Shown here: positions 1-64,000 of the stretch, in pieces
Numbering within the stretch: position 1 is the stretch's first letter
How the letters are laid out: the number at the start of each line of letters is the position of its first letter
Origin: Agelas oroides
Lineage: Eukaryota > Porifera > Demospongiae > Agelasida > Agelasidae
Reading direction: 5' to 3'
Assembly (NCBI GenBank): GCA_949130485.1
Contig: OX422192.1
Span: 2,980,085 to 3,044,084, forward strand
DNA length: 64,000 nt
Notes under the pieces: generated by a model
What the model was told of the DNA's origin: nothing
Databases searched by the model: none
Seen by the model: only the letters and a program-made list of their open reading frames with translations
Made by a program: the position numbers and the translations under genes

Positions 1-2234
1 TACCACACTCTACCCCGACTCTACCTCACTCAACCACACTCTACCCCGACTCTACCTCACTCTACCACGCTCTACCCCAACTCTACCTCACTGTACCACA
101 CTCTACACTGACTGTACCTCACTCTACCACACTCTACCCTGGCTCCACCTGACTCTACCTCATTCTACCACACTCTACCCTGGGTCTACCCGACTCTACC
201 TCACTCTACCACACTCTACCCCGACTCTACCTCACTCTACCACACTCTACCCCGACTCTACCTCACTCTACCACACTGTACCCCGACTCTACCTCATTCT
301 ACCACACTCTACCCTGGCTCTACCCGACTCTACCTCACTCTACCACACTCTACCCCGACTCTACCTCTCTCTACCGCACTCTATCCAGGCTCGACCCGAC
401 TCTACCTCACTCTACCACACTCTACCCTGGCTCGACCCGACTCTACCTCATTCTACCACACTGTGCCCTGGCTCTACCCAACTCTACCTCACTCTACCCC
501 ACTCTACCCCGACTCTACCTCACTCTACCACACTCTACCCTGCCTCGACCCGACTCTACCTCACTCTACCACACTGTACCCTGGCTCAAGCCGACTCTAC
601 CTCACTCTACTACAGTCAACCACGACTCTACCTCACTCTACCACAATCTACCACGACTCTACCTCACTCTACCACACTCTACCCCTACTCAACCTCACTC
701 TACCACACTCTACACTGACTCTACTTCACTCTACCACACTCTACCCTGGTTCGACCCGAGTCTAACTCACTCTACCACATTCTACCCTGGCTCGACCCGA
801 CTCTACCTCACTCTACCACACTCTACCCTGGCTCTACCTCACTATACCACACTCTACCCCGACTCTACCTCACTCTACCACACTCTACCCCGACTCTACC
901 TCACTCTACCACACTCTACCCCGACTCTACCTCACTCTACTACACTCTACACTGAATCTACCTCTCTCTACCACACTCTACCCTGGTTCGACCCGAGTCT
1001 CACTCACTCTACCACACACTTCCTGGCTCGACCCAACTCTATTTCACTCTACCACACCCTACCCCGACTCTACCTCACTCTACCACACTCTACCCCGTCT
1101 CTACCTCAATCTACCACACTCTACACTGACCCTACCTCACTCTACCACACTCTACCCTAGTTCGACTCGAGTCTACCTCACTCTACCATACTCTACCCTG
1201 GTTCGACTCGAGTCTACCTCACTCTACCACACTCTTGCCCAACTCTACATCACTCTACCACACTCTACACTGACTCTACCTCACTCTACCACACTCTACC
1301 CTGGTTCGACCCAACTCTAACTCACTCTACCACACTCTACCCTGGCTCGACCCGACTCTACCTCACTCTATCACACCCTACCCCGACTCTACCTCACTCT
1401 ACAACACTCTACGCTGGCTTGACACTTCTCTACCTCACTCTACCACACTCTACGTTGGCTCGACCCGACTCTACCTCACTCTACCACACTCTAACCTGGC
1501 TCAACCCAGCTATACCTCACTCCACCACACCCTTCCCAGACTCTACCTCACTCTACCACACTCTATCCCGACTCTACCTCACTCTACCACACTCTACCCC
1601 GTCTCTTCCTCACTCTACCACGCTCTACCCTGGCTAGACCCGACTCTACCTCACTCTACCAAACTCTACCCTGGCTCGACAGGACTCTACCTCACCCTAC
1701 CACCCTCTGCCATTGCTCGACCCGACTCTACCTCACTCTACCACACTCTACCCCGACTCTACCTCACTATACCACACTCTACCCCGACTCTACCTCACTC
1801 TACGACACTCTACCCCGACTCTACCTCACTCTACCACACTCTACCCCGACTCTACCTCACTCTACCACACTCTACACTGACTCTACCTCTCTCTACCACA
1901 CTCTACCCTGGTTCGATCCGAGTCTAACTCACTCTACCACACACTATCCTGGTTCGACCCAACTCTATTTCACTCTACCACAACCTACCCCGACTCTACC
2001 TCACTTCACCACACTCTACCCCGTCTCTACCTCAATCTACCACACTCTACACTGACTCTACCTCACTCTATCACACTCTACCCTGGTTCGACCCGAGTCT
2101 AACTCACTCTACCACACTCTACCCTGGCTAGACCCGACTCTACCTGACTCTACCACACCCTACCCCGACTCTACCTTACTCTACCACACTCTACCCCGTC
2201 TCTACGTCACTCTACCACACTCTCCACTGACTCT
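1..2234. repeat. Left-edge satellite segment, mixed 31/41-base units
   Basis: This stretch has no gene. It alternates short runs of the plain 31-base unit (for example about 190-290 and 840-940) with 41-base units carrying CCCTGG. Parts of it recur far away. The block at 463-765, which begins in a GTGCCCTGG variant, resembles blocks starting near 22,943, 24,342, 38,306, 46,061 and 51,988. The block at 1,419-1,637 is closely matched at 60,750-60,968. The stretch around 1,910-2,060, with GGTTCGATCC and a CTATTTCA variant, resembles 41,970-42,070 and 61,350-61,450. It therefore belongs to the same higher-order family as the right-hand third of the window, not to the 4,975-base family that follows. 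Confidence 0.9.
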
Positions 2235-3036
2235 ACCTCACTCTACCACACTCTACCATGGTTCGACCCGACTCTAACTCACTCTACCACACTCTACCCT
2301 GGCTCGACCCGACTCTACCTCCCTCTACCACACCCTACCCCGAGTGTATCTCACTCTACCACACTCTACCCCGACTCTACCTAACTCTACCACACTCTAC
2401 TCTGGCTCGACACTACTCTACCTCACTCTACCACACCCTACGTTGGCTCGACACGACTCTACCTCACTCTACCACACTCTACCCTGGCTCTACCCGACTA
2501 TACCTCACTCTACCACACCCTACCTAGACTCTACCTCACTCTACCACACTCTACCCCGTCTCTTCCTCACTCTACCACACTCTACCCTGGCTCGACCTGA
2601 CTCTACCTCACTCTACCACACTCTACCCAAACTCTACTTCACTGTACCCCCACTCTACCTCACTCTACCACACTCTACCCTGGCTAGACCCGACTCTTCC
2701 TCACTCTACCAAACTCTACCCTGGCTCGACTGGACTCTGCCTAACTCTACCACACTCTACCATGGTTCGACCCGACTCTACCTCACTCTATCACACTCTA
2801 ACCTGGCTCTACCCGACTCTACCTCACTCTACCACACTCTACCCCGACTCTACCTCACTCTACCACACTCTACCCCGACTCTACCTCACTCTACCACACT
2901 CTACACTGACTCTACCTCACTCTACCACATTGTACCCTGGTTCGACCCGACTCTAACTCACTCTACCACACTCTACCCTGGCTCGACCCGACTCTACCTC
3001 ACTCTACCAAACTCTACGCTGGCTCGACTGGACTCT
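2235..3036. repeat. Tandem module of 802 bases, first copy
   Basis: This is the first copy of a tandem pair. The CCATGGTTCGACCC variant at 2,257 recurs at 3,059, and the unusual CGAGTGTATC variant near 2,341 recurs near 3,143, both at an offset of 802. From about 2,560 onward the offset becomes 833 because the second copy carries one extra 31-base unit. Boundaries are approximate because unequal exchange happened inside near-identical blocks. Confidence 0.88.
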
Positions 3037-3869
3037 ACCTCACTCTACCACACTCTACCATGGTTCGACCCGACTCTAACTCACTCTACCACACTCTACC
3101 CTGGCTCGACCCGACTCTACCTCCCTCTACCACACCCTACCCCGAGTGTATCTCACTCTACCACACTCTACCCCGACTCTACCTAACTCTACCACACTCT
3201 ACTCTGGCTCGACACTACTCTACCTCACTCTACCACACCCTACGTTGGCTCGACACGACTCTACCTCACTCTACCACACTCTACCCTGGCTCTACCCGAC
3301 TATACCTCACTCTACCACACCCTACCTAGACTCTACCTCACTCTACCACACTCTACCCCGACTATACCTCACTCTACCACACTCTACCCCGTCTCTTCCT
3401 CACTCTACCACACTCTACCCTGGCTCGACATGACTCTACCTCACTCTACCACACTCTACCCCAACTCTACTTCACTGTACCCCCACTCTACCTCACTCTA
3501 CCACACTCTACCCTGGCTAGACCCGACTCTTCCTCACTCTACCAAACTCTACCCTGGCTCGACTGGACTCTGCCTAACTCTACCACACTCTACCATGGTT
3601 CGACCCGACTCTACCTCACTCTATCACACTCTACCCTGGCTCTACCCGACTCTACCTCACTCTACCACACTCTACCCCGACTCTACCTCACTCTACCACA
3701 CTCTACCCCGACTCTACCTCACTCTACCACACTCTACACTGACTCTACCTCACTCTACCACATTCTACCCTGGTTCGACCCGACTCTAACTCACTCTACC
3801 ACACTCTACCCTGGCTTGACCCGACTCTACCTCACTCTACCAAACTCTACGCTGGCTCGACTGGACTCT
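3037..3869. repeat. Tandem module, second copy (833 bases)
   Basis: This is the second copy of the pair starting at 2,235. It has gained a single 31-base unit near 3,355-3,385 relative to the first copy, including a CGACTATACC variant. Landmarks after that point, such as CCATGGTTCG at 2,761 and 3,594, lie 833 bases apart. Its right part overlaps the start of the first 4,975-base higher-order unit, so this module is also a building block of the larger repeat. Confidence 0.86.
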
Positions 3870-3890
3870 AACTCACTCTACCACACTCTA

Positions 3891-3905
3891 CCATGGCTCG
3901 AGCCG
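3891..3905. repeat. CCATGG plus GGCTCGAGCC palindromic variant, first of fifteen
   Basis: The variant CCATGGCTCGAGCCG contains a perfect 10-base palindrome, GGCTCGAGCC, produced by one change (C to G) from the common GGCTCGACCC. I find the palindrome starting at 3,895, 4,573, 8,080, 8,870, 9,548, 13,055, 13,804, 17,301, 25,932, 26,589, 29,724, 33,221, 33,817, 43,599 and 62,508. It marks one module type within the higher-order units and is preceded by a CTGGACTC module in most copies. Confidence 0.9.
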
Positions 3906-6474
3906 ACTCTACCTCACTCTATCACACTCTATTTTGGCTCTACCCAACTCTACCTCACTCTACCTCACCCTACCCAGACTCTACCTCACTCTACCCCACT
4001 CTACCCTGGCTCTACCCGACTCTACCTCACTCTACCACACCCTACTAGACTCTACCTCACTCTATCACACTCTACCCCGACTCTACCTCACTCTACCACA
4101 CTCTACCCCGTCTCTTCCTCACTCTACATCACTCTACCCTGGCTCGACCTGACTCTACCTCACTCTACCAATCTCTACCCCAACTCTACCTCACTGTACC
4201 CCCACTCTACCTCACTCTACCACACTCTACCTTGGCTAGACCCGACTCTTCCTCACTCTACCAAACTCTACCCTGGCTCGACTGGACTCTGCCTCACTCT
4301 ACCACACTCTACCATGGTTCGACCCGACTCTACCTCACTCTATCACACTCTACCCTGGCTCTACCCGACTCTCCCTCACTCTATCACACTCTACCCCGAC
4401 TCTACCTCACTCTACCACACTCTACCCCGACTCTACCTCACTCTACCACACTCTACACTGACTCTACCTCACTCTACCACATTCTACCCTGGTTCGACCC
4501 GACTCTTACTCATTCTACCAAACTCTACGCTGGCTCGACTGGACTCTACCTCACTCTACCACACTCTACCATGGCTCGAGCCGACTCTACCTCACTCTAT
4601 CACACTCTACCTTGGCTCTACCCGACTCTACCTCACTCTACCACACCCTACCCGGACTCTACCTCACTCTACCACACTCTACCCCGACTCTACCTCACTC
4701 TACCATACTCTACCCAGGCTCGATCCGACTCTACCTCACTCTACCCCACTCTACCCTGGGTATACCCGACTCTACCTCACTCTACCCCACCCTACCCCGA
4801 CTCTGCCTCATTCTACTACACTCAATCCGGACTCTACCTCACTCTACCACACTGTACCCTGGCTCGACCCGACTCTACCTCACTCTACCACACTCTACCC
4901 TGGCTCCACCTGACTCTACCTCACTCTACCACAATCTACCCTGGCTCTACCCGACTCTACCTCACTCTACCACACCCTACCCCGACTCTACCTCACTCTA
5001 TGACACTCTACCCCGACTCTACCTCACTCTACCACACTCTATCCAGGCTCGACCCGACTCTACCTCACCCTACCACACTCTATCCTGGATCGACCCGACT
5101 CTACCTCATTCTACCACACTGTACCCTGGCTCTACCCGACTCTACCTCACTCTACCCCACTCTACCCCGACTCTACCTCACTCTACCACACTCTACCCTG
5201 GCTCGACCCGACTCTACCTCACTCTACCACACTGTACCCTGGTTCTACCGGACTCTTCCTTACACTACCCCACTTTACCCCGACTCTACCTCACTCTACT
5301 ACACTCAACCCCGACTCTACCTCACTCTACCACAATCTACCCCGACTCTACCTCACTCTACCACACTCTACCCCTACTCTACCTCACTCTACCACACTCT
5401 AACCTGACTCTACTTCACTCTACCACACTCTACCCTGGTTCGACCCGAGTCTAACTCATTGTACCACATTCTACCCTGGCTCGACCCGACTCTACCTCAC
5501 TCTACCACACACTACCCTCGCTCTACCCGACTATACCTCACTCTACCACACCCTACCCAGAGTCTACCTCACTCTACTACACTCTACATTGGCTCGACCC
5601 GACTCTACCTCACTCTACCACACTCTACCCTGGCTCTACCCGACTATACCTTACTCTACCACACCCTACCCAGACTCTACCTTACTCTACCACACTCTAC
5701 CCCGACTCTACCTCACTCTACCACACTCTACCCCGTCTCTTGCTCACTCTACCACACTCTACCCTGGCTCGACCCGACTCTACTTCACTCTACCACACCC
5801 TACCCCGACTCTACCTCACTCTACAACACTCTACACCGACTCTACCTTAATCTGCCACACTGTACACTTACTCTACCTCACTCTACCACACTCTACCCTG
5901 GTTCGACCCAAGTCTAACTCACTCTACCACACTCTACCCTGGCTCGACCCGACTCTACTTCACTCTACCACACCCTACCCCGACTCTACATCACTCTACC
6001 ACACTCTACCCCAACTCTACCTCACTCTACCACACTCTACCCTAGCTCGACCTGACTCTACCTCACCCTACCACAACCTACCCTGGCTCGACCCGACCCT
6101 ACCTCACTCCACCCTCGCTCGACCCGACTCTAACTCACTCTACTGCACTCTACCCCGACTCTACCTCACTCTACCACACTCTACCCTGACTCTACCTCAC
6201 TCTACCACACTCTACCCTGGCTCGACCCTACTCTACCTCACTCTATCAAACTCTACCTTGACTCGTCCCGACTCTACCTCACTCTACCAAACTTTACCCA
6301 AGCTCGACTGGACTCTACCTCACTCTACCACACTCTACCCTGGCTCGACCAGACTGTACCTCCTCCACCACACTCTACCCTGTCTCGACCAGACTCTACA
6401 TCACTCTACCACACTCTACCCCGACTCTACCTCACTCTGCTACACTCTACCACACTCAACCCCGACTCTACCTC

Positions 6475-6495
6475 ACTCTACCGCGGGTGTACCTC
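6475..6495. repeat. CCGCGG landmark variant of the higher-order unit
   Basis: A CTACCGCGGGTGTACC variant occurs once per higher-order unit. I find CCGCGG at 6,481, 11,456, 15,671, 18,336, 20,682, 28,497, 31,591 and 34,852, and none elsewhere on reading. It lies between a CTCTGCTACACTC variant upstream and a CACTATACC variant downstream. It is useful as a phase marker: its spacings (4,975, 4,215, 2,665, 2,346, 7,815, 3,094 and 3,261) show where units were shortened, duplicated or separated. Confidence 0.92.
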
Positions 6496-8495
6496 ACTAT
6501 ACCACACTCTACCCTGGCTCGACCCGACTCTACCTCACTCTACCACACTCTACCCTTGCTCTACCCAACTCTACCTCACTCTACCTCAATCTACCCCGAC
6601 TCTACCTCACTCTACCACACTCTACCCTTACTCTACCTCACTCTACCACATTCTACACTGACTCTACTTCACTCTACCACACTCTACCCTGGTTCGACCT
6701 GAGTCTAACTCACTCTACCACATTCTACCCTGGCTCGACCCGACTCTACCTCACTCTACCACACTCTACCCTGGCTCTACCCGACTATACCTCACTCTAC
6801 CACATCCTACCCAGACTCTACCTCACTCTACTACACTCTACGTTGGCTCGACCCGACTCTACCTCACTCTACCACACTTTACCCTGGCTCTATCCGAATA
6901 TACCTTACTCTACCACACCCTACCCAGACTCCACCTAACTCTACAACACTCTACCCCTACTCTACCTCACTCTACCACACTCTACCCCGACTCTTCCTCA
7001 CTCTACCACAGTCTACCCTGGCTCGACCCGACTCCACCTCACTCTACCACACACTACCCCAACTCTACCTCACTCTACTCCCACTCTACCTCATTCTACC
7101 ACACTCTACCCTGGCTCGACCTGACTCTACCTCACTCTACCAAACTCTACCCTAGCTCGACTGGACTCTACCTCACTCTACCACACTCTACCCTGTGTCG
7201 ACCCGACTCTACCTCACTCTACCACCCTGTACCCTGGCTCAACCCGACTCTACCTCACTCTACCCCACCTTACCCCGACTCTACCTCACTCTACTACACT
7301 CAACCACGACTCTACCTCACTCTACCACAATCTACCACGACTCTACCTCACTCTACCACACTCTACCCCAACTCTACCTCACTCTACCACACTCTACACT
7401 GACTCTACTTCACTCTACCACACTCTACCCTGGTTCGACCCGACTCTAACTCACTCTACCACACTCTACCCTGGTTCGACCCGACTCTACCTCACTCTAC
7501 CACACCCTACCTAGACTCTACCTCACTCTACCACACTCTACCCCGACTCTACCTCACTCTACCACACTCTACCCCGTCTCTTCCTCACTCTACCACACTC
7601 TACCCTGGCTCGACCTGACTCTACCTCACTCTACCACACTCTACCCCAACTCTACCTCACTGTACCCCCACTCTACCTCACTCTACCACACTCTACCCTG
7701 CCTAGACCCGACTCTTCCTCACTCTACCAAACTCTACCCTGGCTCGACTGGACTCTGCCTCACTCTACCACACTCTACCATGGTTCGACCCGACTCTACC
7801 TCACTCTATCACACTCTACCCTGGCTCTACCTGACTCTACCTCACTCTACCACACTCTACCCCGACTCTACCTCACTCTACCACACTCTACCCCGACTCT
7901 ACCTCACTCTACCACACTCTACACTGACTCTACCTCACTCTACCACATTCTACCCTGGTTCGACCCGACTCTTACTCACTCTACCACACTCTACCCTGGC
8001 TCGACCCGACTCTACCTCACTCTACCAAACTCTACGCTGGCTCGACTGGACTCTACCTCACTCTACCACACTCTACCATGGCTCGAGCCGACTCTACCTC
8101 ACTCTATCACACTCTACCTTGGCTCTACCCGACTCTACCTCACTCTACCTCACCCTACCCAGACTCTACCTCACTCTACCACACTCTACCCCGACTCTAC
8201 CTCTCTCTACCATACTCTACCCAGGCTCGATCCGACTCTACCTCACTCTACCCCACTCTACCCTGGCTCTACCCGACTCTACCTCACTCTACCACACCCT
8301 ACTAGACTCTACCTCACTCTACCACACTCTACCCCGACTCTACCTCACTCTACCACACTCTACCCTGTCTCTTCCTCACTCTACATCACTCTACCCTGGC
8401 TCGACCTGACTCTACCTCACTCTACCACACTCTACCCCAACTCTACCTCACTGTACCCCACTCTACCTCTCTCTACCACACTCTACCCTTGCTAG

Positions 8496-11400
8496 ACCCG
8501 ACTCTTCCTCACTCTACCAAACTCTACCCTGGCTCGACTGGACTCTGCCTCACTCTACCACACTCTACCATGGTTCGACCCGACTCTACCTCACTCTATC
8601 ACACTCTACCCTGGCTCTACCCGACTCTCCCTCACTCTACCACACTCTACCCCGACTCTACCTCACTCTACCACACTCTACCCCGACTCTACCTCACTCT
8701 ACCACACTCTACACTGACTCTACCTCACTCTACCACATTCTACCCTGGTTCGACCCGACTCTAACTCACTCTACCACACTCTACCCTGGCTTGACCCGAC
8801 TCTACCTCACTCTACCAAACTCTACGCTGGCTCGACTGGACTCTAACTCACTCTACCACACTCTACCATGGCTCGAGCCGACTCTACCTCACTCTATCAC
8901 ACTCTATTTTGGCTCTACCCAACTCTACCTCACTCTACCTCACCCTACCCAGACTCTACCTCACTCTACCCCACTCTACCCTGGCTCTACCCGACTCTAC
9001 CTCACTCTACCACACCCTACTAGACTCTACCTCACTCTATCACACTCTACCCCGACTCTACCTCACTCTACCACACTCTACCCCGTCTCTTCCTCACTCT
9101 ACATCACTCTACCCTGGCTCGACCTGACTCTACCTCACTCTACCAATCTCTACCCCAACTCTACCTCACTGTACCCCCACTCTACCTCACTCTACCACAC
9201 TCTACCTTGGCTAGACCCGACTCTTCCTCACTCTACCAAACTCTACCCTGGCTCGACTGGACTCTGCCTCACTCTACCACACTCTACCATGGTTCGACCC
9301 GACTCTACCTCACTCTATCACACTCTACCCTGGCTCTACCCGACTCTCCCTCACTCTATCACACTCTACCCCGACTCTACCTCACTCTACCACACTCTAC
9401 CCCGACTCTACCTCACTCTACCACACTCTACACTGACTCTACCTCACTCTACCACATTCTACCCTGGTTCGACCCGACTCTTACTCATTCTACCAAACTC
9501 TACGCTGGCTCGACTGGACTCTACCTCACTCTACCACACTCTACCATGGCTCGAGCCGACTCTACCTCACTCTATCACACTCTACCTTGGCTCTACCCGA
9601 CTCTACCTCACTCTACCACACCCTACCCGGACTCTACCTCACTCTACCACACTCTACCCCGACTCTACCTCACTCTACCATACTCTACCCAGGCTCGATC
9701 CGACTCTACCTCACTCTACCCCACTCTACCCTGGGTATACCCGACTCTACCTCACTCTACCCCACCCTACCCCGACTCTGCCTCATTCTACTACACTCAA
9801 TCCGGACTCTACCTCACTCTACCACACTGTACCCTGGCTCGACCCGACTCTACCTCACTCTACCACACTCTACCCTGGCTCCACCTGACTCTACCTCACT
9901 CTACCACAATCTACCCTGGCTCTACCCGACTCTACCTCACTCTACCACACCCTACCCCGACTCTACCTCACTCTATGACACTCTACCCCGACTCTACCTC
10001 ACTCTACCACACTCTATCCAGGCTCGACCCGACTCTACCTCACCCTACCACACTCTATCCTGGATCGACCCGACTCTACCTCATTCTACCACACTGTACC
10101 CTGGCTCTACCCGACTCTACCTCACTCTACCCCACTCTACCCCGACTCTACCTCACTCTACCACACTCTACCCTGGCTCGACCCGACTCTACCTCACTCT
10201 ACCACACTGTACCCTGGTTCTACCGGACTCTTCCTTACACTACCCCACTTTACCCCGACTCTACCTCACTCTACTACACTCAACCCCGACTCTACCTCAC
10301 TCTACCACAATCTACCCCGACTCTACCTCACTCTACCACACTCTACCCCTACTCTACCTCACTCTACCACACTCTAACCTGACTCTACTTCACTCTACCA
10401 CACTCTACCCTGGTTCGACCCGAGTCTAACTCATTGTACCACATTCTACCCTGGCTCGACCCGACTCTACCTCACTCTACCACACACTACCCTCGCTCTA
10501 CCCGACTATACCTCACTCTACCACACCCTACCCAGAGTCTACCTCACTCTACTACACTCTACATTGGCTCGACCCGACTCTACCTCACTCTACCACACTC
10601 TACCCTGGCTCTACCCGACTATACCTTACTCTACCACACCCTACCCAGACTCTACCTTACTCTACCACACTCTACCCCGACTCTACCTCACTCTACCACA
10701 CTCTACCCCGTCTCTTGCTCACTCTACCACACTCTACCCTGGCTCGACCCGACTCTACTTCACTCTACCACACCCTACCCCGACTCTACCTCACTCTACA
10801 ACACTCTACACCGACTCTACCTTAATCTGCCACACTGTACACTTACTCTACCTCACTCTACCACACTCTACCCTGGTTCGACCCAAGTCTAACTCACTCT
10901 ACCACACTCTACCCTGGCTCGACCCGACTCTACTTCACTCTACCACACCCTACCCCGACTCTACATCACTCTACCACACTCTACCCCAACTCTACCTCAC
11001 TCTACCACACTCTACCCTAGCTCGACCTGACTCTACCTCACCCTACCACAACCTACCCTGGCTCGACCCGACCCTACCTCACTCCACCCTCGCTCGACCC
11101 GACTCTAACTCACTCTACTGCACTCTACCCCGACTCTACCTCACTCTACCACACTCTACCCTGACTCTACCTCACTCTACCACACTCTACCCTGGCTCGA
11201 CCCTACTCTACCTCACTCTATCAAACTCTACCTTGACTCGTCCCGACTCTACCTCACTCTACCAAACTTTACCCAAGCTCGACTGGACTCTACCTCACTC
11301 TACCACACTCTACCCTGGCTCGACCAGACTGTACCTCCTCCACCACACTCTACCCTGTCTCGACCAGACTCTACATCACTCTACCACACTCTACCCCGAC

Positions 11401-13470
11401 TCTACCTCACTCTGCTACACTCTACCACACTCAACCCCGACTCTACCTCACTCTACCGCGGGTGTACCTCACTATACCACACTCTACCCTGGCTCGACCC
11501 GACTCTACCTCACTCTACCACACTCTACCCTTGCTCTACCCAACTCTACCTCACTCTACCTCAATCTACCCCGACTCTACCTCACTCTACCACACTCTAC
11601 CCTTACTCTACCTCACTCTACCACATTCTACACTGACTCTACTTCACTCTACCACACTCTACCCTGGTTCGACCTGAGTCTAACTCACTCTACCACATTC
11701 TACCCTGGCTCGACCCGACTCTACCTCACTCTACCACACTCTACCCTGGCTCTACCCGACTATACCTCACTCTACCACATCCTACCCAGACTCTACCTCA
11801 CTCTACTACACTCTACGTTGGCTCGACCCGACTCTACCTCACTCTACCACACTCTACCCTGGCTCTATCCGAATATACCTTACTCTACCACACCCTACCC
11901 AGACTCCACCTAACTCTACAACACTCTACCCCTACTCTACCTCACTCTACCACACTCTACCCCGACTCTTCCTCACTCTACCACAGTCTACCCTGGCTCG
12001 ACCCGACTCCACCTCACTCTACCACACACTACCCCAACTCTACCTCACTCTACTCCCACTCTACCTCATTCTACCACACTCTACCCTGGCTCGACCTGAC
12101 TCTACCTCACTCTACCAAACTCTACCCTAGCTCGACTGGACTCTACCTCACTCTACCACACTCTACCCTGTGTCGACCCGACTCTACCTCACTCTACCAC
12201 CCTGTACCCTGGCTCAACCCGACTCTACCTCACTCTACCCCACCTTACCCCGACTCTACCTCACTCTACTACACTCAACCACGACTCTACCTCACTCTAC
12301 CACAATCTACCACGACTCTACCTCACTCTACCACACTCTACCCCAACTCTACCTCACTCTACCACACTCTACACTGACTCTACTTCACTCTACCACACTC
12401 TACCCTGGTTCGACCCGACTCTAACTCACTCTACCACACTCTACCCTGGTTCGACCCGACTCTACCTCACTCTACCACACCCTACCTAGACTCTACCTCA
12501 CTCTACCACACTCTACCCCGACTCTACCTCACTCTACCACACTCTACCCCGTCTCTTCCTCACTCTACCACACTCTACCCTGGCTCGACCTGACTCTACC
12601 TCACTCTACCACACTCTACCCCAACTCTACCTCACTGTACCCCCACTCTACCTCACTCTACCACACTCTACCCTGCCTAGACCCGACTCTTCCTCACTCT
12701 ACCAAACTCTACCCTGGCTCGACTGGACTCTGCCTCACTCTACCACACTCTACCATGGTTCGACCCGACTCTACCTCACTCTATCACACTCTACCCTGGC
12801 TCTACCTGACTCTACCTCACTCTACCACACTCTACCCCGACTCTACCTCACTCTACCACACTCTACCCCGACTCTACCTGACTCTACCACACTCTACACT
12901 GACTCTACCTCACTCTACCACATTCTACCCTGGTTCGACCCGACTCTTACTCACTCTACCACACTCTACCCTGGCTCGACCCGACTCTACCTCACTCTAC
13001 CAAACTCTACGCTGGCTCGACTGGACTCTACCTCACTCTACCACACTCTACCATGGCTCGAGCCGACTCTACCTCACTCTATCACACTCTACCTTGGCTC
13101 TACCCGACTCTACCTCACTCTACCTCACCCTACCCAGACTCTACCTCACTCTACCACACTCTACCCCGACTCTACCTCTCTCTACCATACTCTACCCAGG
13201 CTCGATCCGACTCTACCTCACTCTACCCCACTCTACCCTGGCTCTACCCGACTCTACCTCACTCTACCACACCCTACTAGACTCTACCTCACTCTACCAC
13301 ACTCTACCCCGACTCTACCTCACTCTACCACACTCTACCCTGTCTCTTCCTCACTCTACATCACTCTACCCTGGCTCGACCTGACTCTACCTCACTCTAC
13401 CACACTCTACCCCAACTCTACCTCACTGTACCCCACTCTACCTCTCTCTACCACACTCTACCCTTGCTAG
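8496..13470. repeat. 4,975-base higher-order repeat, copy B
   Basis: This near-identical tandem copy of the preceding unit keeps a constant 4,975-base offset. The self-match runs on to about 13,760, where the third copy loses 41 bases (one four-block unit), so the duplicated tract is slightly longer than one period. Internal modules begin at CCATGGTTCG near 8,569 and 9,288 (719 apart), and 7,779 to 8,569 is 790 apart. The near-absence of differences implies recent duplication, ongoing homogenisation, or an assembly duplication. Confidence 0.93.
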
Positions 13471-16400
13471 ACCCGACTCTTCCTCACTCTACCAAACTCT
13501 ACCCTGGCTCGACTGGACTCTGCCTCACTCTACCACACTCTACCATGGTTCGACCCGACTCTACCTCACTCTATCACACTCTACCCTGGCTCTACCCGAC
13601 TCTCCCTCACTCTACCACACTCTACCCCGAATCTACCTCACTCTACCACACTCTACCCCGACTCTACCTCACTCTACCACACTCTACACTGACTCTACCT
13701 CACTCTACCACATTCTACCCTGGTTCGACCCGACTCTTACTCACTCTACCACACTCTACCCTGGCTCGACCCGACTCTACCTCACTCTACCACACTCTAC
13801 CATGGCTCGAGCCGACTCTACCTCACTCTATCACACTCTACCTTGGCTCTACCCGACTCTACCTCACTCTACCACACCCTACCCAGACTCTATCTCACTC
13901 TACCACACTCTACCCCGACTCTACCTCACTCTACCATACTCTACCCAGGCTCGATCCGACTCTACCTCACTCTACCCCACTCTACCCTGGCTATACCCGA
14001 CTCTACCTCACTCTACCCCACCCTACGCCGACTCTGCCTCATTCTACTACACTCAATGCGGACTCTACCTCACTCTACCACACTGTACCCTGGCTCGACC
14101 CGACTCTACCTCACTCTACCACACTCTACCCTGGCTCCACCTGACTCTACCTCACTCTACCACAATCTACCCTGGCTCTACCCGACTCTACCTCACTCTA
14201 CCACACCCTACCCCGACTCTACCTCACTCTATGACACTCTACCCCGACTCTACCTCACTCTACCACACTCTACCCTGGATCGACCCGACTCTACCTCATT
14301 CTACCACACTGTACCCTGGCTCTACCCGACTCTACCTCACTCTACCCCACTCTACCCCGACTCTACCTCACTCTACCACACTCTACCCTGGCTCGACCCG
14401 ACTCTACCTCACTCTACCACACTGTACCTTGGTTCTACCGGACTCTACCTTACACTACCCCACCTTACCCCGACTCTACCTCACTCTACTACACTCAACC
14501 CCGAATCTACCTCACTCTACCACAATCTACCCCGACTCTACCTCACTCTACCACACTCTACCCCTACTCTACCTCACTCTAACACACTCTAACCTGACTC
14601 TACTTCACTCTACCACACTCTACCCTGGTTCGACCCGAGTCTAACTCATTGTACCACATTCTACCCTGGCTCGACCCGACTCTACCTCACTCTACCACAC
14701 ACTACCCTGGCTCTACCCGACTATACCTCACTCTACCACACCCTACCCAGAGTCTACCTCACTCTACTACACTCTACATTGGCTCGACCCGACTCTACCT
14801 CACTCTACCACACTCTACCCTGGCTCTACCCGACTATACCTTACTCTACCACACCCTATCCAGACTCTACCTTACTCTACCACACTCTACCCCGACTCTA
14901 CCTCACTCTACCACACTCTACCCCGTCTCTTGCTCACTCTACCACACTCTACCCTGGCTCGACCTGACTCTACTTCACTCTACCACACCCTACCCCGACT
15001 CTACCTCACTCTACAACACTCTACACCGACTCTACCTTAATCTGCCACACTGTACACTTACTCTACCTCACTCTACCACACTCTACCCTGGTTCGACCCG
15101 AGTCTAACTCACTCTACCACACTCTACCCTGGCTCGACCCGACTCTACTTCACTCTACCACACCCTACCCCGACTCTACCTCACTCTACCACACTCTACC
15201 CCAACTCTACCTCACTCTACCACACTCTACCCTAGCACGACCTGACTCTACCTCACCCTACCACAACCTACCCTGGCTCGACCCGACCCTACCTCACTCC
15301 ACCCTCGCTCGACCCGACTCTAACTCACTCTACTGCACTCTGCCCCGACTCTACCTCACTCTACCACACTCTACCCTGACTCTACCTCACTCTACCACAC
15401 TCTACCCTGGCTCAACCCTACTCTACCTCACTCTACCAAACTCTACCTTGACTTGTCCCGACTCTACCTCACTCTACCAAACTCTACCCTAGCTCGACTG
15501 GACTCTACCTCACTCTACCACACTCTACCCTGGCTCGACCAGACTGTACCTCCTCCACCACACTCTACCCTGTCTCGACCAGACTCTACATCACTCTACC
15601 ACACTCTACCCCGACTCTACCTCACTCTGCTACACTCTACCACACTCAACCCCGACTCTACCTCACTCTACCGCGGGTGTATCTCACTATACCACAATCT
15701 ACCCTGGCTCGACCAGACTCTACCTCACTCTACCACACTCTACCCTTGCTCTACCCAACTCTACCTCACTCTACCTCAATCTACCCCGACTCTACCTCAC
15801 TCTACCACACTCTAACCCTACTCTACCTCACTCTACCACACTCTACACTGACTCTACTTCACTCTACCACACTCTACCCTGGTTCGACCTGAGTCTAACT
15901 CACTCTACCACATTCTACCCTGGCTCGACCCGACTCTACCTCACTCTACCACACTCTACCCTGGCTCGAACCGACTATACCTCACTCTAGCACATCCTAA
16001 CCAGACTCTACCTCACTCTACTACACTCTACGTTGGCTCGACCCGACTCTACCTCACTCTACCACACACTACCCTGGCTCTATCCGAATATACCTTACTC
16101 TAGCACACCCTACCCAGACTCCACCTAACTCTACAACACTCTACCCCGACTCTACCTCACTCTACCACACTCTACCCCGACTCTTCCTCACTCTACCACA
16201 GTCTACCCTGGCTCGACCCGACTCCACCTCACTCAACCACACTCTACCCCAACTCTACCTCACTCTACCCCCACTCTACCTCATTCTACCACACTCTATC
16301 CTGGCTCGACCTGACTCTACCTCACTCTACCAAACTCTACCCTAGCTCGACTGGACTCTACCTCACTCTACCACACTCTACCCTGCGTCGACCCGACTCT

Positions 16401-17480
16401 ACCTCACTCTACCACCCTGTACCCTGGCTCAACCCGACTCTACCTCACTCTACCCCTCCTTACCCCGACTCTACCTCACTCTACTGCACTCAACCACGAC
16501 TCTACCTCACTCTACCACAATCTACCGCGACTCTACCTCACTCTACCACACTCTACCCCAACTCTACCTCACTCTACCACACTCTACACTGACTGTACTT
16601 CACTCTACCACACTCTACCCTGGTTCATCCCGACTCTAACTCACTCTACCACACTCTACCCTGGTTCGACCCGACTCTACCTCACTCTACCACACCCTAC
16701 CTAGACTCTACCTCACTCTACCACACTCTACCCCGACTCTACCTCACTCTACCACACTCTACCCCGACTCTACCTCACTCTACCACACTCTACCCCGTCT
16801 CTTCCTCACTCTACCACACTCTACCCTGGCTCGACCTGACTCTACCTCACTCTACCACACTCTACCCCAACTCTACCTCACTGTACCCCCACTCTACCTC
16901 ACTCTACCACACTCTACCCTGCCTAGACCCGACTCTTCCTCACTCTACCAAACTCTACCCTGGCTCGACTGGACTCTGCCTCACTCTACCACACTCTACC
17001 ATGGTTCGACCCGACTCTACCTCACTCTATCACACTCTACCCTGGCTCTACCTGACTCTACCTCACTCTACCACACTCTACCCCGACTCTACCTCACTCT
17101 ACCACACCCTACCCCGACTCTACCTCACTCTACCACACTCTACACTGACTCTACCTCACTCTACCTCATTCTACCCTGGTTCGACCCGACTCTTACACAC
17201 TCTACCACTCTCTACCCTGGCTCGACCCGACTCTACCTCACTCTACCAAACTCTACGCTGGCTCGACTGGACTCTACCTCACTCTACCACACTCTACCAT
17301 GGCTCGAGCCGACTCTACCTCACTCTATCACACTCTACCTTGGCTCTACCCGACTCTACCTCACTCTACCACACCCTACCCAGACTCTACCTCACTCTAC
17401 CACACTCTACCCCGACTCTACCTCACTCTACCATACTCTACCCAGGCTCGATCCGACTCAACCTTACTCTACCCCACTCT
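13471..17480. repeat. Shortened third copy of the higher-order repeat (copy C)
   Basis: This copy follows unit B with offsets that step down. They are 4,934 near 13,802 (41 bases lost), then 4,256 near 13,843 when matched to the later internal module (one 719-base module missing), then 4,215 from about 14,649 through the CCGCGG landmark at 15,671. The offset is 4,246 near 17,001 (31 bases gained). The changes match loss or gain of whole units or modules. Divergence from A and B is visibly higher than between A and B, for example CCTATCC near 14,866 and several TAC to TAT changes. Confidence 0.88.
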
Positions 17481-20340
17481 ACCATGGTTCTACCCGACTC
17501 TACCTCACTCTACCCCACCCTACCCCGACTCTGCCTCATTCTACTACACTCAATCCGGACTCTACCTCACTCTACCACACTGTACCCTGGCTCGACCCGA
17601 CTCTACCTCACTCTACCACACTCTACCCTGGCTCCACCTGACTCTACCTCACTCTACCACACTCTACCCTGTCTCTACCCGACTCTACCTCACTCTACCA
17701 CACCCTACCCATACTCTACCTCACTCTACTACACTCTACATTGGCTCGACCCGACTCTACCTCACTCTACCACACTCTACCCTGGCTCTACCCGACTATA
17801 CCTTACTCTACCACACCCTACCCAGACTCTACCTTACTCTACCACACTCTACCCCGACTCTACCTGACTCTACCACACTCTACTCCGTCTCTTGCTCACT
17901 CTACCACACTCTACCCTGGCTCGACCCGACTCTACTTCACTCTACCACACCCTACCCCGACTCTACCTCACTCTACAACACTCTACCCCGTCTCTACCTC
18001 AATCTGCCACACTGTACACTTACTCTACCTCACTCTACCACACTCTACCCTGGTTCGACCCGAGTCTAACTCACTCTACCACACTCTACCCTGGCTCGAC
18101 CCGACTCTATTTCACTCTACCACACTCTACCCCAACTCTACCTCACTCTACTACACTCTACCCTAGCTCGACTGGACTCTACCTCACCCTACCACAACCT
18201 ACCCTGGCTCGACCCGACCCTACCTCACTCCACCCTCGCTCGACCCGTCTCTAACTCACTCTACTGTACTCTACCCCGACTCTACCTCACTCTGCTACAC
18301 TCTACCACACTCAACCCCGACTCTACCTCACTCTACCGCGGGTGTACCTCACTATACCACACTCTACCCTGGCTCGACCCGACTCTACCTCACTCTACCA
18401 CACTCTACCCTTGCTCTACCCAACTCTACCTCACTCTACCTCAATCTATCCCGACTCAACCTCACTCTAGCACACTCTACCCGTACTCTACCTCACTCTA
18501 CCACACTCTACACTGACTCTACTTCACTCTACCACACTCTACCCTGGTTCGACCCGAGTCTAACTCACTCTACCACATTCTACCCTGGCTCGACCCGACT
18601 CTACCTCACTCCACCACACTCTACCCTGGCTCTACCCGACTATACCTCACTCTACCACATCCTACCCAGATTCTACCTCACTCTACTACACTCTACGTTG
18701 GCTCGACCCGACTCTACCTCACTCTACCACACTCTACCCTAGCTCGACTGGACTCTACCTCACTCTACCACACTCTACCCTGGCTCGACCCGACTATACC
18801 TCACCCTACCACACCCTACCCTGGCTCAACCCGACTCTACCTCACTCCACACTCGCTCGACCCGACTCTAACTCACTCTACCGCACTCTACCCCAACTCT
18901 ACCTCACTCTACCACACTCTACCCTGGCTCGACCCTACTCTACCTCACTCTACCACACTCTACCTTGACTCGACCCGACTCTACCTCACTATACCACACT
19001 CTACCCCAACTCTAACTCACTCTACCACACACTACCCCGACTCTATCTCACTCTACCACACTCTACACTGAGTCTACCTCTCTCTACCACACTCTAACCT
19101 AGCTCGACCTGACTCTACTTCACTCTACCACACCCTACCCCGACTCTATCTCACTCTACCACACTCTACCCCGTCTCTACCTCAATCTACCACACTCTAC
19201 ACTGATGCTACCTCACTCTACCACACTCTACCCTGGTTCGACCCGAGTCTAACTCACTCTACCACACTTTACCCTGGCTCGACCCGACTATACCTCACTC
19301 TACCACACCCTACCCAGACTCTACCTCACTCTACAACACTCTATCCCGACTCTACCTCACTCTACCACACTCTACCCCGTCTCCTCCTCGCTCTACCACG
19401 CTCTACCCTGGCTTGACCCGACTCTACCTCACTCTACCACACTCTATCCCAACTCTACCTCACTCTACCCCGACTCTACCTCACTCTACCACACTCTACC
19501 CTGGCTAGACCCGGCTCTACCTCACTCTACCAAACTCTACCATGGCTCGACTGGATTCTACCTCACTCTACCACACTCTACCATGGCTCGACCCGACTCT
19601 ACCTCACTCTATGACACTCTACCCTGGCTCTACCCGACTCTACCTCACTCTACCACACTCTACCCCGACTCTACATCACTCTACCACACTCTACCCCAAC
19701 TCTACCTCACTCTACCACACTCTACACTGACTCTACCTCACTCTACCACACTCTACCCTGGCTCCACCTCAATCTACCTCATTCTACCACACTCTACCCT
19801 TGCTCTACCCGACTCTACCTCACTCTACCACACTCTACCCCGACTCTACCTCACTCTACCACACTCTACCCCGACTCTACCTCATTCTACCGCACTCTAC
19901 CCTGGCTCTACCCGACTCTACCTCACTCTACCACACTCTACCCCGACTCTACCTCACTCTACCACACTCTACCCCGACTCTACCTCTCTCTACCACACTC
20001 TATCCAGGCTCGACCCGACTCTACCTCACTCTACCACACTCTACCCCAACTCTACCTCACTCTACCACACTCTACACTGACTCTACCTCACTCTACCACA
20101 CTCTACCCTGGCTCCACCTCAATCTACCTCATTCTACCACACTCTACCCTGGCTCTACCCGACTCTACCTCACTCTACCACACTCTACCCCGACTCTACC
20201 TCACTCTACCACACTCTACCCCGACTCTACCTCATTCTACCACACTCTACCCTGGCTCTACCCGACTCTACCTCACTCTACCACACTCTACCCCGACTCT
20301 ACCTCACTCTACCACACTCTACACTGACTCTACCTCACTC
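17481..20340. repeat. Compressed higher-order copy plus a second module type
   Basis: From about 17,480 the order of landmarks jumps. Only about 1,035 bases separate the GGCTCGAGCC palindrome at 17,301 from the CCGCGG landmark at 18,336, whereas in copy B they are about 1,908 apart. After 18,400 come modules that are rare in copies A-C: CTCCACACTC near 18,845, CTCCTCCTCG near 19,380, CCATGG pairs near 19,540-19,585, and regular runs of the plain 31-base unit from 19,630 to 20,320. The segment 17,741-20,327 recurs at 34,257-36,843 with a constant offset of 16,516. Confidence 0.86.
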
Positions 20341-33645: not shown

Positions 33646-34241
33646 CTACCACACTCTACACTGACTCTACCTCACTCTACCTCATTCTACCCTGGTTCGA
33701 CCCGACTCTTACACACTCTACCACACTCTACCCTGGCTCGACCCGACTCTACCTCACTCTACCAAACTCTACGCTGGCTCGACTGGACTCTACCTCACTC
33801 TACCACACTCTACCATGGCTCGAGCCGACTCTACCTCACTCTATCACACTCTACCTTGGCTCTACCCGACTCTACCTCACTCTACCACACCCTACCCAGA
33901 CTCTACCTCACTCTACCACACTCTACCCCGACTCTACCTCACTCTACCATACTCTACCCAGGCTCGATCCGACTCAACCTTACTCTACCCCACTCTACCA
34001 TGGTTCTACCCGACTCTACCTCACTCTACCCCACCCTACCCCGACTCTGCCTCATTCTACTACACTCAATCCGGACTCTACCTCACTCTACCACACTGTA
34101 CCCTGGCTCGACCCGACTCTACCTCACTCTACCACACTCTACCCTGGCTCCACCTGACTCTACCTCACTCTACTACACTCTACCCTGTCTTTACCCGACT
34201 CTACCTCACTCTACCACACCCTACCCATACTCTACCTCACT
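33646..34241. repeat. 596-base tandem duplication, second copy
   Basis: The two copies are almost identical. The one substitution I saw is T at 33,567 versus C at 34,163. Downstream of this copy the offset to the earlier large copy changes from 15,920 to 16,516, exactly 596. Confidence 0.9.
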
Positions 34242-46305: not shown

Positions 46306-47991
46306 CTCTACCCCTACTCTACCTCACTCTACCACACTCTACACTGACTCTACTTCACTCTACCACACTCTACCCTGGTTCGACCTGAGTCTAACTCACT
46401 CTACCACACTCTACCCTGGCTCGACCCGACTCTACCTCACTCTACCACACTCTACCCTGGCTCTACCCGACTATACCTCACTCTACCACACCCTACCCAG
46501 ACTTTACCTCACTCTACTACACTCTACGTTGGCTCAACCCGACTCTACCTCACTCTACCCGACTATACCTTACTCTACCACACCCTACCCAGACTCTACC
46601 TCACTCTACCACACTCTAACCCGACTCTGCCTCACTCTACCACACTCTACCCCGACTCTTCCTCACTCTACCACAGTCTACCCTGGCTCGACCCGACTCC
46701 ACCTCACTCTTCCACACTCTACCCCAACTCTACCTCACTCTACCCCCACTCTACCTCATTCTACCACACTCTACCCTGGCTCGACCTGACTCTACCTCAC
46801 TCTACCAAACTCTACTTCACTCTACCACACTCTACCCTGGTTCGACCTGAGTCTAACTCACTCTACCACACTCTACCCTGGCTCGACCCGACTCTACCTC
46901 ACTCTACCACACTCTACCCTGGCTCTACCCGACTATACCTCACTCTACCACACCCTACCCAGACTCTACCTCACTCTACTACACTCTACGTTGGCTAAAC
47001 CCGACTCTACCTCACTCTACCCGACTATACCTTACTCTACCACACCCTACCCAGACTCTACCTCACTCTACCACACTCTAACCCGACTCTACCTCACTCT
47101 ACCACACTCTACCCTGACTCTTCCTCACTCTACCACAGTCTACCCTGGCTCGACCCGACTCCACCTCACTCTTCCACACTCTACCCCAACTCTACCTCAC
47201 TCTACCCCCACTCTACCTCATTCTACCACACTCTACCCTGGCTCGACGTGACTCTACCTCACTCTACCAAACTCTACTTCACTCTACCACACTCTACCCT
47301 GGTTCGACCCGAGTCTAACTCACTCTACCACATTCTACCCTGACTCGACCCGACTCTACCTCACTCTACCACACTCTACCCTGACTCTACCCGACTATAC
47401 CTCACTCTACCACACCCTACCCAGATTCTACCTCACTCTACTACACTCTACGTTGGCTCGACCCGACTCTACCTCACTCTACCACACTCTACCCTGGCTC
47501 TACCCGAATATACCTTACTCTACCACACCCTACCCAGACTCCACCTCACTCTACAACACTCTACCCTGACTCTACCTCACTCTACCACACTCTACCCCGA
47601 CTCTTCCTCACTCTACCACAGTCTACCCTGGCTCGACACGACTCCACCTCACTCTACCACACTCTACCCCAACTCTACCTCACTCTACCCCCACTCTACC
47701 TTATTCTACCACACTCAACCCTGGCTCGACCTGACTCTACCTCACTCTACCAAACTCTACCCTAGCTCGACTGGACTCTACCTCACTCTACCACACTCTA
47801 CCCTGGCTCAACCCGACTATTCCTCACTCTACCACACTCTACCCTGTCTTGACCCGACTCTACCTCACTCTACTACACTCTACCCCGACTCTTCCTCACT
47901 CTAGTACACTCTACCCCGATTCTACCTCACTCTTCCACACTCTACCCTGGCTCGACCCTACTCTACCTCACTCTACCACACTCTACCTTGA
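46306..47991. repeat. 1,686-base tandem repeat, first copy
   Basis: The interval starts at CTCTACCCCTACTC. The variant CTACGTTGGCTCG at 47,451 (its CGTT) recurs at 49,137, and the stretch at 46,991-47,251 recurs at 48,677-48,937, all at offset 1,686. Internally it is itself made of two related halves, each containing a CACAGTCTACC module and a TACGTTGGCT module. Confidence 0.92.
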
Positions 47992-49671
47992 CTCTACCCC
48001 TACTCTACCTCACTCTACCACACTCTACACTGACTCTACTTCACTCTACCACACTCTACCCTGGTTCGACCTGAGTCTAACTCACTCTACCACACTCTAC
48101 CCTGGCTCGACCCGACTCTACCTCACTCTACCACACTCTACCCTGGCTCTACCCGACTATACCTCACTCTACCACACCCTACCCAGACTTTACCTCACTC
48201 TACTACACTCTACGTTGGCTCAACCCGACTCTACCTCACTCTACCCGACTATACCTTACTCTACCACACCCTACCCAGACTCTACCTCACTCTACCACAC
48301 TCTAACCCGACTCTGCCTCACTCTACCACACTCTACCCCGACTCTTCCTCACTCTACCACAGTCTACCCTGGCTCGACCCGACTCCACCTCACTCTTCCA
48401 CACTCTACCCCAACTCTACCTCACTCTACCCCCACTCTACCTCATTCTACCACACTCTACCCTGGCTCGACCTGACTCTACCTCACTCTACCAAACTCTA
48501 CTTCACTCTACCACACTCTACCCTGGTTCGACCTGAGTCTAACTCACTCTACCACACTCTACCCTGGCTCGACCCGACTCTACCTCACTCTACCACACTC
48601 TACCCTGGCTCTACCCGACTATACCTCACTCTACCACACCCTACCCAGACTCTACCTCACTCTACTACACTCTACGTTGGCTAAACCCGACTCTACCTCA
48701 CTCTACCCGACTATACCTTACTCTACCACACCCTACCCAGACTCTACCTCACTCTACCACACTCTAACCCGACTCTACCTCACTCTACCACACTCTACCC
48801 TGACTCTTCCTCACTCTACCACAGTCTACCCTGGCTCGACCCGACTCCACCTCACTCTTCCACACTCTACCCCAACTCTACCTCACTCTACTCCCACTCT
48901 ACCTCATTCTACCACACTCTACCCTGGCTCGACGTGACTCTACCTCACTCTACCAAACTCTACTTCACTCTACCACACTCTACCCTGGTTCGACCCGAGT
49001 CTAACTCACTCTACCACATTCTACCCTGACTCGACCCGACTCTACCTCACTCTACCACACTCTACCCTGACTCTACCCGACTATACCTCACTCTACCACA
49101 CCCTACCCAGATTCTACCTCACTCTACTACACTCTACGTTGGCTCGACCCGACTCTACCTCACTCTACCACACTCTACCCTGGCTCTACCCGAATATACC
49201 TTACTCTACCACACCCTACCCAGACTCCACCTCACTCTACAACACTCTACCCCGACTCTACCTCACTCTACCACACTCTACCCCGACTCTTCCTCACACA
49301 GTCTGCCCTGGCTCGACACGACTCCACCTCACTCTACCACACTCTACCCCAACTCTACCTCACTCTACCCCCACTCTACCTTATTCTACCACACTCAACC
49401 CTGGCTCGACCTGACTCTACCTCACTCTACCAAACTCTACCCTAGCTCGACTGGACTCTACCTCACTCTACCACACTCTACTTTGGCTCAACCCGACTAT
49501 TCCTCACTCTACCACACTCTACCCTGTCTTGACCCGACTCTACCTCACTCTACTACACTCTACCCCGACTCTTCCTCACTCTACTACACTCTACCCCGAT
49601 TCTACCTCACTCTTCCACACTCTACCCTGGCTCGACCCTACTCTACCTCACTCTACCACACTCTACCTTGA
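47992..49671. repeat. 1,686-base tandem repeat, second copy (6 bases shorter)
   Basis: This is the second copy. The junction at about 47,992 joins CTACCTTGA directly to CTCTACCCCTACTC. Differences I saw are C to T at 48,892, a CCCTGA to CCCCGA change near 49,250, and a loss of 6 bases near 49,296 that removes part of a block. After that loss the offset is 1,680 (47,849 and 49,529). Loss of 6 bases is unusual here because most length changes are whole blocks or units. Confidence 0.92.
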
Positions 49672-61600: not shown

Positions 61601-64000
61601 ACACTCTACCCCGTCTCTACATCACTCTACCACACTCTCCACTGACTCTACCTCACTCTACCACACTCTACCATGGTTCGACCCGACTCTAACTCACTCT
61701 ACCACACTCTACCCTGGCTCGACCCGACTCTACCTCACTCTACCACACCCTACCCCGAGTCTATCTCACTCTACCACACTCTACCCCGACTCTACCTAAC
61801 TCTACCACACTCTACGCTGGCTCGACACTACTCTACCTCACTCTACCACACCCTACGTTGGCTCGACCCGACTCTACCTCACTCTACCACACTCTTCCCT
61901 GGCTCTACCCGACTATACCTCACTCTACCACACCCTATCTAGACTCTACCTCACTCTACCACACTCTACCCCGACTCTACCTCACTCTACCACACTCTAC
62001 CCCGTCTCTTCCTCACTCTACCACACTCTACCCTGGCTCGACCTGACTCTACCTCACTCTACCACACTTTACCCCAACTCTACCTCACTGTACCCCCACT
62101 CTACCTCACTCTACCACACTCTACCCTGGCTAGACCCGACTCTTCCTCACTGTACCAAACTCTACCCTGGCTCGACTGGACTCTGCCTCACTCTACCACA
62201 CTCTACCATGGTTCGACCCGACTCTACCTCACTCTATCACACTCTACCCTGGCTCTACCCGACTCTACCTCACTCTACCACACTCTACCCCGACTCTACC
62301 TCACTCTACCACACTCTACCCCGACTCTACCTCACTCTACCACACTCTACACCGACTCTACCTCACTCTACCACATTCTACCCTGGTTCAACTCGACTCT
62401 TACTCACTCTACCACACTCTACCCTGGCTCGACCCTACTCTACCTCACTCTACCAAACTCTACGCTGGCTCGACTGGACTCTACCTCACCCTACCACACT
62501 CTACCATGGCTCGAGCCGACTCTACCTCACTCTATCACACTCTACCTTGGCTCTACCCGACTCTACCTCACTCTACCACACCCTACCCAGACTCTACCTC
62601 ACGCTACCACACTCTACCCCGACTCTACCTCACTCTACCATACTCTACCCAGCCTCGATCCGACTCTACCTCACTCTACCCCACTCTACCCTGGCTCTAC
62701 CCGACTCTACCTCACTCTACCCCACCCCCCGACTCTGCCTCATTCTACTACACTCAATCCGGACTCGACCTCACTCTACCACACTGTACCCTGGCTCGAC
62801 CCGACTCTACCTCACTCTACCACACTCTACCCTGGCTCCACCTGACTCTACCTCACTCTACCACACTCTACCCTGGCTTTACCCGACTCTACCTCACTCT
62901 ACCACACTCTACCCCGACTCTACCTCACTCTATGACACTCTACCCCGACTCTACTTCACTCTACCACACTCTATCCAGGCTCGACCCGACTCTACCTCAC
63001 TCTACCACACTCTACCGTGGATCGACCCGACTCTACCTCACTCTATCACACTCTACCCTGGCTCTACCCGACTCTACCTCACTCTACCACACTCTACCCC
63101 GACTCTACCTCACTCTACCACACTCTACCCCGACTCTACCTCACTCTACCACACTCTACACTGACTCTACCTCACTCTACCACACTCTACCCTGACTCTA
63201 CTTCACTCTACCACACTCTACCCTGGTTCGACCCGAGTCTAACTCACTTTACCACATTCTACCGTGGCTAGACCCGACTCTACCTCACTCTACCACACCC
63301 TACCCTGGCTCTACCCGACTATACCTCACTCTACCACACACTACCCAGACTCTACCTCACCCTACTACACTCTACATTGGCTCGACCCGATTCTACCTCA
63401 CTCTACCACACTCTACTCTGGCTCTACCCGACTATACCTTACTCTACCACACCCTACCCAGACTCTACCTTACTCTACCACACTCTACCCCGACTCTACC
63501 TCACTCTACCACACTCTAGCCCGTATCTTGCTCACTCTACCACACTCTACCGTGGCTCGACCCGACTCTACTTCACTCTACCACACCCTACCCCGACTCT
63601 ACCTCACTCTACAACACTCTACACCGTCTCCACCTCAATCTGCCACACTGTACACTTACTCTTCCTCACTCTACCACACTCTACCCTGGTTCGACCCGAG
63701 TCTAACTCACTCTACCACACTCTACCCTGGCTCGACACGACTCTACTTCACTCTACCACACCCTACCCCGACTCTACCTCACTCTACCACACTCTATCCC
63801 AAGTCTACCTCACTCTACCACACTCTACACTGACGCTACCTCTCTCTACCACACTCTACCCTGGCTCGACCCTACTCTACCTCACTCTACCAAACTCTAC
63901 CTTGACTCGTCCCGACTCTACCTCACTCTACCAAACTCTACCCTAGCTCGACTGGACTCTACCTCACTCTACCACACTCTACCCTTGCTCTACCCAACTC
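58606..64000. repeat. Right-half higher-order block, second copy, cut by the window edge
   Basis: This block is the counterpart of 39.8-45.0 kb at offsets 18,785 to 19,009. It also contains 60,750-60,968, which closely matches 1,419-1,637, so the two ends of the window carry the same module. A three-base loss near 62,727 produces a run of six C where other copies have CACCCTACCCC. The block runs off the right edge in mid-unit. Confidence 0.88.

Follow-up and report, generated by a model that had tools for sequence, protein, structure and literature searches.

What fills 64,000 bases of a sponge chromosome with variations on one short motif, what keeps its units in step, and could such DNA belong to a centromere? 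These questions are raised by a stretch of Agelas oroides contig OX422192.1 (hereafter C10; positions 2,980,085-3,044,084, 64,000 bases, forward strand; assembly GCA_949130485.1), referred to below as the window, which an earlier note had described as an uninterrupted, nested satellite. The window proves to be a slice of one large array in a satellite family that was found on some, but not all, of the large contigs. On the evidence of the bases, we consider the chances about evenly balanced that this is a centromere-region satellite of C10 and some other chromosomes, with a register that would suit nucleosome wrapping.

The whole window is a single tandem satellite on one strand, and 99.98% of it can be covered with just six types of block, each 10 or 11 bases long, with a mean mismatch of 6.4% that rises to 11.5% in the worst 200-bp window. 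The blocks mostly consist of CTCTACC followed by three or four further bases, and their usual combinations are T-A-c and T-A-d, each of 31 bases, and the 41-base T-A-w-g; among 1,973 distances between successive T blocks, 817 are of 31 bases and 784 of 41. Self-identity is 72% at a lag of 41, 70% at 31, 67% at 72 and 59% at 10, the median being 33%, and an exact 27-mer core that occurs 428 times in the window is found in none of 100 dinucleotide shuffles (gapped self-alignment gives about 80% identity everywhere and is hence uninformative). The satellite has 53% G+C and a strong strand asymmetry, with a GC skew of about -0.74, and the window contains no N. No inverted copy is present in the window, and the satellite and its reverse complement have not one 11-mer in common. 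The window also holds no G-quadruplex motif, and no single-strand folding signal appears in two stretches taken on both strands (z of 0.95, -1.04, 0.03 and -0.44). Three claims of the earlier note are thereby borne out: that no unique DNA interrupts the repeat (the tiling), that no inverted copy occurs (the 11-mers), and that 10/11-base blocks build 31/41-base units (the tiling, lag identities and T-block distances). The corresponding feature, defined by the tiling, the T-block distances and the array edges, is:

1 to 64000, plus strand: slice of a unidirectional satellite array whose units have 31 bases (T-A-c, T-A-d) or 41 (T-A-w-g)

Samples along C10, a contig of 9.54 Mb, show that the window is 64 kb of an array that runs from about 2,736,453 to 3,209,732 (some 473 kb) in the interior of the contig, making this satellite DNA in the usual sense of a long head-to-tail array of related units. 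Orientation is identical in the window and in 15 of 15 other samples of the array. Both edges adjoin ordinary sequence, the left neighbour being a 191-bp satellite and the right a reverse-transcriptase fragment. The 191/192-bp family lies at about 2720166-2736379 on C10, beside the C4 array (4320-6446 of the sampled locus), at the start of C9 and in small arrays on several chromosome arms. It was considered as a centromere core and rejected: a 26-mer allowed up to 3 mismatches gives 343 matches, those listed including C2, C4, C6, C8, C9, C12, C17 and places elsewhere on C10, and because its matches fall on so many contigs the family is dispersed.

The assembly comprises 259,295,671 bases in 141 contigs, of which 23 large ones (6.76-32.68 Mb) hold 256.6 of 259.3 Mb. 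An exact 28-mer core has 19,153 matches in it, and a map built from rare-variant patterns, with complete lists for three of them (49, 65 and 95 matches), places 14 arrays on 12 of the 23 large contigs: C4, C5, C7, C8, C10, C11, C12 (two), C13, C15 (two), C17, C19 and C21. A 1.2-kb sample from each array other than that of C10 confirmed the satellite in 13 of 13. Known spans total 3.18 Mb, those outside C10 being lower bounds, and the 28-mer count scaled by its density in the window gives 3.07 Mb, or about 1.2% of the genome. All 14 array midpoints are interior, their distance to the closer end being 0.20-0.49 of chromosome length, for which uniform placement gives a probability of 7.9e-4 with a threshold that was set post hoc. 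With respect to the closer telomere, 10 of 14 arrays point inward, which is not a significant excess (p 0.18). At one edge of the C4 array (C4:6642944-6643614), unlike in the C10 array, orientation flips twice within 0.7 kb.

The blocks are also in step with the DNA helix. The TA step returns every 10.30 bp, with a mean local power of 10.0, versus 0.91 in shuffled sequence and 0.69-0.89 at three control loci, and a flexible dinucleotide step at about 10 bp is what a rotationally phased satellite would be expected to have. One-base insertions and deletions (indels) can hide in a tiling that admits both 10- and 11-base blocks, and T-block distances and off-register spacings were used to count them. 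In the window, some 4,060 bases are mismatched while 28 T-block distances are near misses, a ratio of roughly 145 to 1; in the 191-bp satellite beside the array, at similar divergence, each gap event is accompanied by 13.4 substitutions in one sample (11 copies) and by 5.6 in another (8 copies). Within the window, 7 of 471 spacings are off register (0.27/kb); the 13 other arrays have 11 of 105 (1.96/kb), and a (CTCYACCATA)n minisatellite on C2 has 28 of 216 (12.5/kb). These register figures count copies and not independent events, since duplications multiply indels and substitutions alike, and the C2 relative serves as a single 2.2-kb control. The minisatellite lies at about 4,950-7,200 on C2 (some 2.2 kb, near the contig start) and again at about 7.0506 Mb on C1 (a few hundred bases). 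It resembles the satellite in its CTCTACC core and 10-base step and differs in its pure 10-base units, its shortness and its looser register; it is possibly a model of the ancestral unit, albeit one that often loses register.

How, then, are the copies kept alike? Within the window, 75% of 400-bp windows have a copy at least 97% identical elsewhere, the strongest offsets being 4975, 15920, 16516, 17041, 22016, 20135, 25110, 4215, 9190 and 13964. The first of these covers 5,448 bp. The clearest duplicated segments are:

3464 to 8911, plus strand: segment with a tandem duplicate at +4975 (copy 8439-13886), 99.2% identity, including a 3,224-bp exact run
13702 to 17789, plus strand: segment with a copy at +15920 (29622-33709), 98.6% identity
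17037 to 20455, plus strand: segment with a copy at +16516 (33553-36971), 98.5% identity
23016 to 25201, plus strand: segment with a copy at +13964 (36980-39165), 97.7% identity
46276 to 47634, plus strand: segment with a copy at +1686 (47962-49320), 97.0% identity

Three pairs of offsets lie exactly 4975 apart (17041/22016, 20135/25110 and 4215/9190), which is expected if one duplication overlies another. The lag spectrum peaks at 4.2 kb and 4.975 kb, offsets of 9, 13, 15-16, 20 and 25 kb are also strong, and lags of 700-799 hold 2,416 windows versus 630 and 879 in the adjacent bins. The larger levels are real but irregular: they are nested, recent duplications, and there is no regular higher-order repeat, the offsets varying where an alpha-satellite-type array would have a constant higher-order period repeated many times. 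What had been proposed as units of 4.2-5 kb therefore stands as a pair of peaks produced by irregular duplication and falls as a constant higher-order unit; a proposed module of 0.7-0.83 kb has its counterpart in the excess at 700-799, which is weak, local and one of several; and a single level of 14-19 kb is not borne out, given the strength of all the offsets from 9 to 25 kb.

Between arrays the picture is one of a common grammar and separate histories. The 72-base consensus that joins a 31- and a 41-base unit has 19 exact occurrences, on C4, C7, C12, C15 and C17, and the unit grammar is thus common to arrays that otherwise differ. The 1.2-kb samples, one from each of the 13 arrays outside C10, have 0.2-13.6% of their 50-mers in common with a 124-kb set of C10 sequence, whereas pieces of C10 compared with the rest of C10 reach 15.5-100% (20 random window pieces average 82.5%; 6 pieces from other C10 samples range over 15.5-59.3%). 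The C10 array has therefore been homogenised largely on its own, via kilobase-scale duplications such as those in the window, and array-specific homogenisation is in this sense established for C10 against the 13 others. For CpG, the observed/expected ratio of the array is 0.90 and that of the 191-bp satellite 1.18, compared with 0.27-0.52 at four other C10 loci; a ratio this high fits low methylation and fits fast homogenisation too.

An array that is long, interior, uniform in orientation, homogenised separately and phased in a nucleosome-friendly way fits a centromere-region satellite, and the genome map, in which 12 of the 23 large contigs carry 14 arrays, all of them interior, suggests a centromeric place; that DNA friendly to nucleosomes also serves a centromere is our inference. 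Under such a scheme the family would have grown out of a 10-base repeat, and unequal exchange or break-induced replication would keep copies alike within each array. The 10/11-base register might be retained because successive nucleosomes could then wrap in one favoured rotation, and uniform rotation may in turn provide stable, even chromatin for the kinetochore or for flanking heterochromatin. A bolder version, in which this is sponge centromere sequence whose 10.3-bp register over half a megabase is under selection for uniform nucleosome rotation, a selection that would remove small indels but not substitutions, seems to us rather unlikely.

Several findings weigh against a centromeric role. 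Selection on the TA step was looked for in the window and not found: the T of TA steps is mutated as often as other T (42/1212 vs 62/2070, p 0.47) and the A more often than other A (67/1212 vs 62/1843, p 0.004, a difference to which block assignment contributes). Since the step is no better conserved than other T and A, it is the register, and not the step itself, that is kept. The 13 other arrays lose register 7 times as often as the window does; the lowest self-share within C10 (15.5%) nearly touches the highest value for another array (13.6%), such that the gap is clear on average and narrow at its edges; and the CENP-B box core TTCGNNNNANNCGGG has 0 matches in the window on both strands. 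It is also important to stress that a centromeric satellite should provide one array per chromosome, and that rare-variant and core matches reveal none on 11 of the 23 large contigs, the three largest included. The three complete rare-variant lists have 0 matches on C6, C9, C14, C16, C18, C20, C22, C23 or any smaller contig. For C14, C16, C18, C20, C22, C23 and the small contigs, absence rests on these lists; for C6 and C9, additionally on the matches listed for two further patterns, which run past them in contig order; and for C1-C3, on listings of core and relative matches that run past them. An array carrying none of the variants used would escape detection outside C1-C3. C12 (about 2.04-2.17 and 4.55-4.72 Mb) and C15 (about 2.46-2.70 and 5.16-5.28 Mb) have two arrays each, in the same orientation within each contig. 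Unless these contigs are misjoined, two or more arrays must therefore lack centromere activity; a misjoin, an inactive second array and a centromere shift are candidate readings of these pairs.

Absence from about half of the chromosomes keeps another reading close behind, namely that of a non-centromeric heterochromatic satellite, forming knob-like blocks, that spread neutrally and was homogenised by unequal exchange, its 10.3-bp phasing being a mere by-product of its 10-base ancestry. We regard this as a serious possibility, if short of an even chance. The contigs on which no array was found, the doubled arrays and the unprivileged TA steps speak for it, as do the (CTCYACCATA)n tracts with the same core on C2 and C1 and the short fragments scattered over C1-C3, which together with that short 10-base relative are all that those three contigs contain of the family. 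One of the fragments, on C2, has a one-base variant found (among the matches listed) at two places in the C8 array, suggesting that it was seeded from an array. Against it, 14 of 14 arrays are interior. Moreover, the arrays keep their register 6 to 46 times better than the 10-base relative does, which a mere by-product would not predict, although duplication multiplies copies and the events behind these ratios are not independent. Patchiness and double arrays might also mark a selfish satellite that gains by biased transmission, through centromere-associated or neocentromere-like drive, and hence occupies only some chromosomes; this would be deduced from distribution, and we consider it improbable. 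An assembler, finally, could have multiplied repeats or misplaced arrays, since near-identical 5-kb copies (99.2%) are hard to assemble and C12 and C15 have two arrays each; with both C10 edges joining ordinary sequence, variants peculiar to each array and a window free of N, such an artefact is very unlikely. A centromere-region satellite thus remains our preferred, if finely balanced, interpretation.

Other repeats were encountered along the way. By eye, a 0.3-kb satellite fragment on C1 (1352-1650 of the sampled locus) has retroelement-like sequence on one side and an element with long inverted ends (1645-2792) on the other. C10 starts with (CCCTAA)n followed by a tandem subtelomeric repeat; this repeat (CCCCCTTTCAGTCAATTAACTATTAACACCAAA...) lies directly inside (CCCTAA)n telomeres in the C10 subtelomere (361-4000 of the sampled locus) and at the starts of C3, C5, C6, C7, C11, C12, C13 and C20. 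A second satellite of roughly 10-base blocks (CAGGGGAATG; C14:1-2000), unrelated in sequence to that of the window, was considered as the missing centromere of the other chromosomes and rejected; because it is also present in the C10 subtelomere, it is probably subtelomeric. At C10:5000000-5005000 a Helitron-like element has Helitron_like_N and PIF1 helicase domains in open frames, and an arm locus encodes TIG and tyrosine-kinase domains. A search of 14 arm and flank loci against Rfam gave 0 matches at the gathering score. Among the small contigs, C141 (22,436 bp) is mitochondrial; its TGA codons stand for W, and its cox1 is split into two parts separated by about 1.2 kb (possibly an intron). 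C107 has a cox1-like match that is free of inner stops and may stem from a different organism.

The satellite had not been recognised from its letters, and this agrees with what searches returned. Literature containing any of four 13-base array words included no paper about a satellite, as judged from titles and the start of abstracts, with subscription journals and satellite libraries outside the search; a search for satellites that combine 31-bp and 41-bp units with higher-order repeats yielded one beetle paper; no title among the papers listed for sponges and centromeres dealt with sponge centromeres; freshwater sponge satellite DNA led to one monkey genome; and the exact core had 0 matches in viral and 0 in prokaryote contig collections. 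In Spongilla lacustris, a collapsed repeat that may be a counterpart of these arrays is reported to join the chromosome arms at 3.21 Mb of chromosome 7 (PMC12141999).

If the arrays carry CENP-A, centromeres would be available in assembled form from an animal of an early branch, and it could be tested cleanly whether helical-turn periodicity favours centromeric nucleosomes, as has been proposed. If they lack it, the contrast is still useful, as bases change freely in an array whose 10/11-base register is nearly fixed while its 10-base relative often falls out of register, and this contrast measures what keeps satellite units in step.

Among known systems, the earlier note had pointed to primate alpha satellite, in which a 171-base monomer is organised into higher-order repeats. 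That comparison holds for process, both satellites having array-specific homogenisation and nested recent duplications, but not for form: the C10 satellite has no 171-base monomer, no regular higher-order unit and no CENP-B box core. The avian CNM/PO41 satellites have a 41-base period and clusters of A and of T; compared by description only, the period of about 41 is alike and the clusters are missing from C10. Talbert and Henikoff attribute higher-order repeats to unequal exchange or break-induced replication (PMC8997354) and propose that the helical-turn periodicity of 5- and 10-base Drosophila centromeric satellites favours rotational phasing (PMC5844345). Prodsat of D. melanogaster (AATAACATAG) and its kin (PMC5844345) share with the C10 satellite short units of one helical turn, long arrays and dinucleotide steps phased at about 10 bp. 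Prodsat is A+T-rich with a single 10-base unit, whereas the C10 satellite is G+C-richer (53%) and strand-asymmetric and mixes 10- and 11-base blocks in 31/41-base units. The C10 satellite family is a natural case for both ideas, that of helical-turn phasing and that of exchange or replication as the source of larger repeats.

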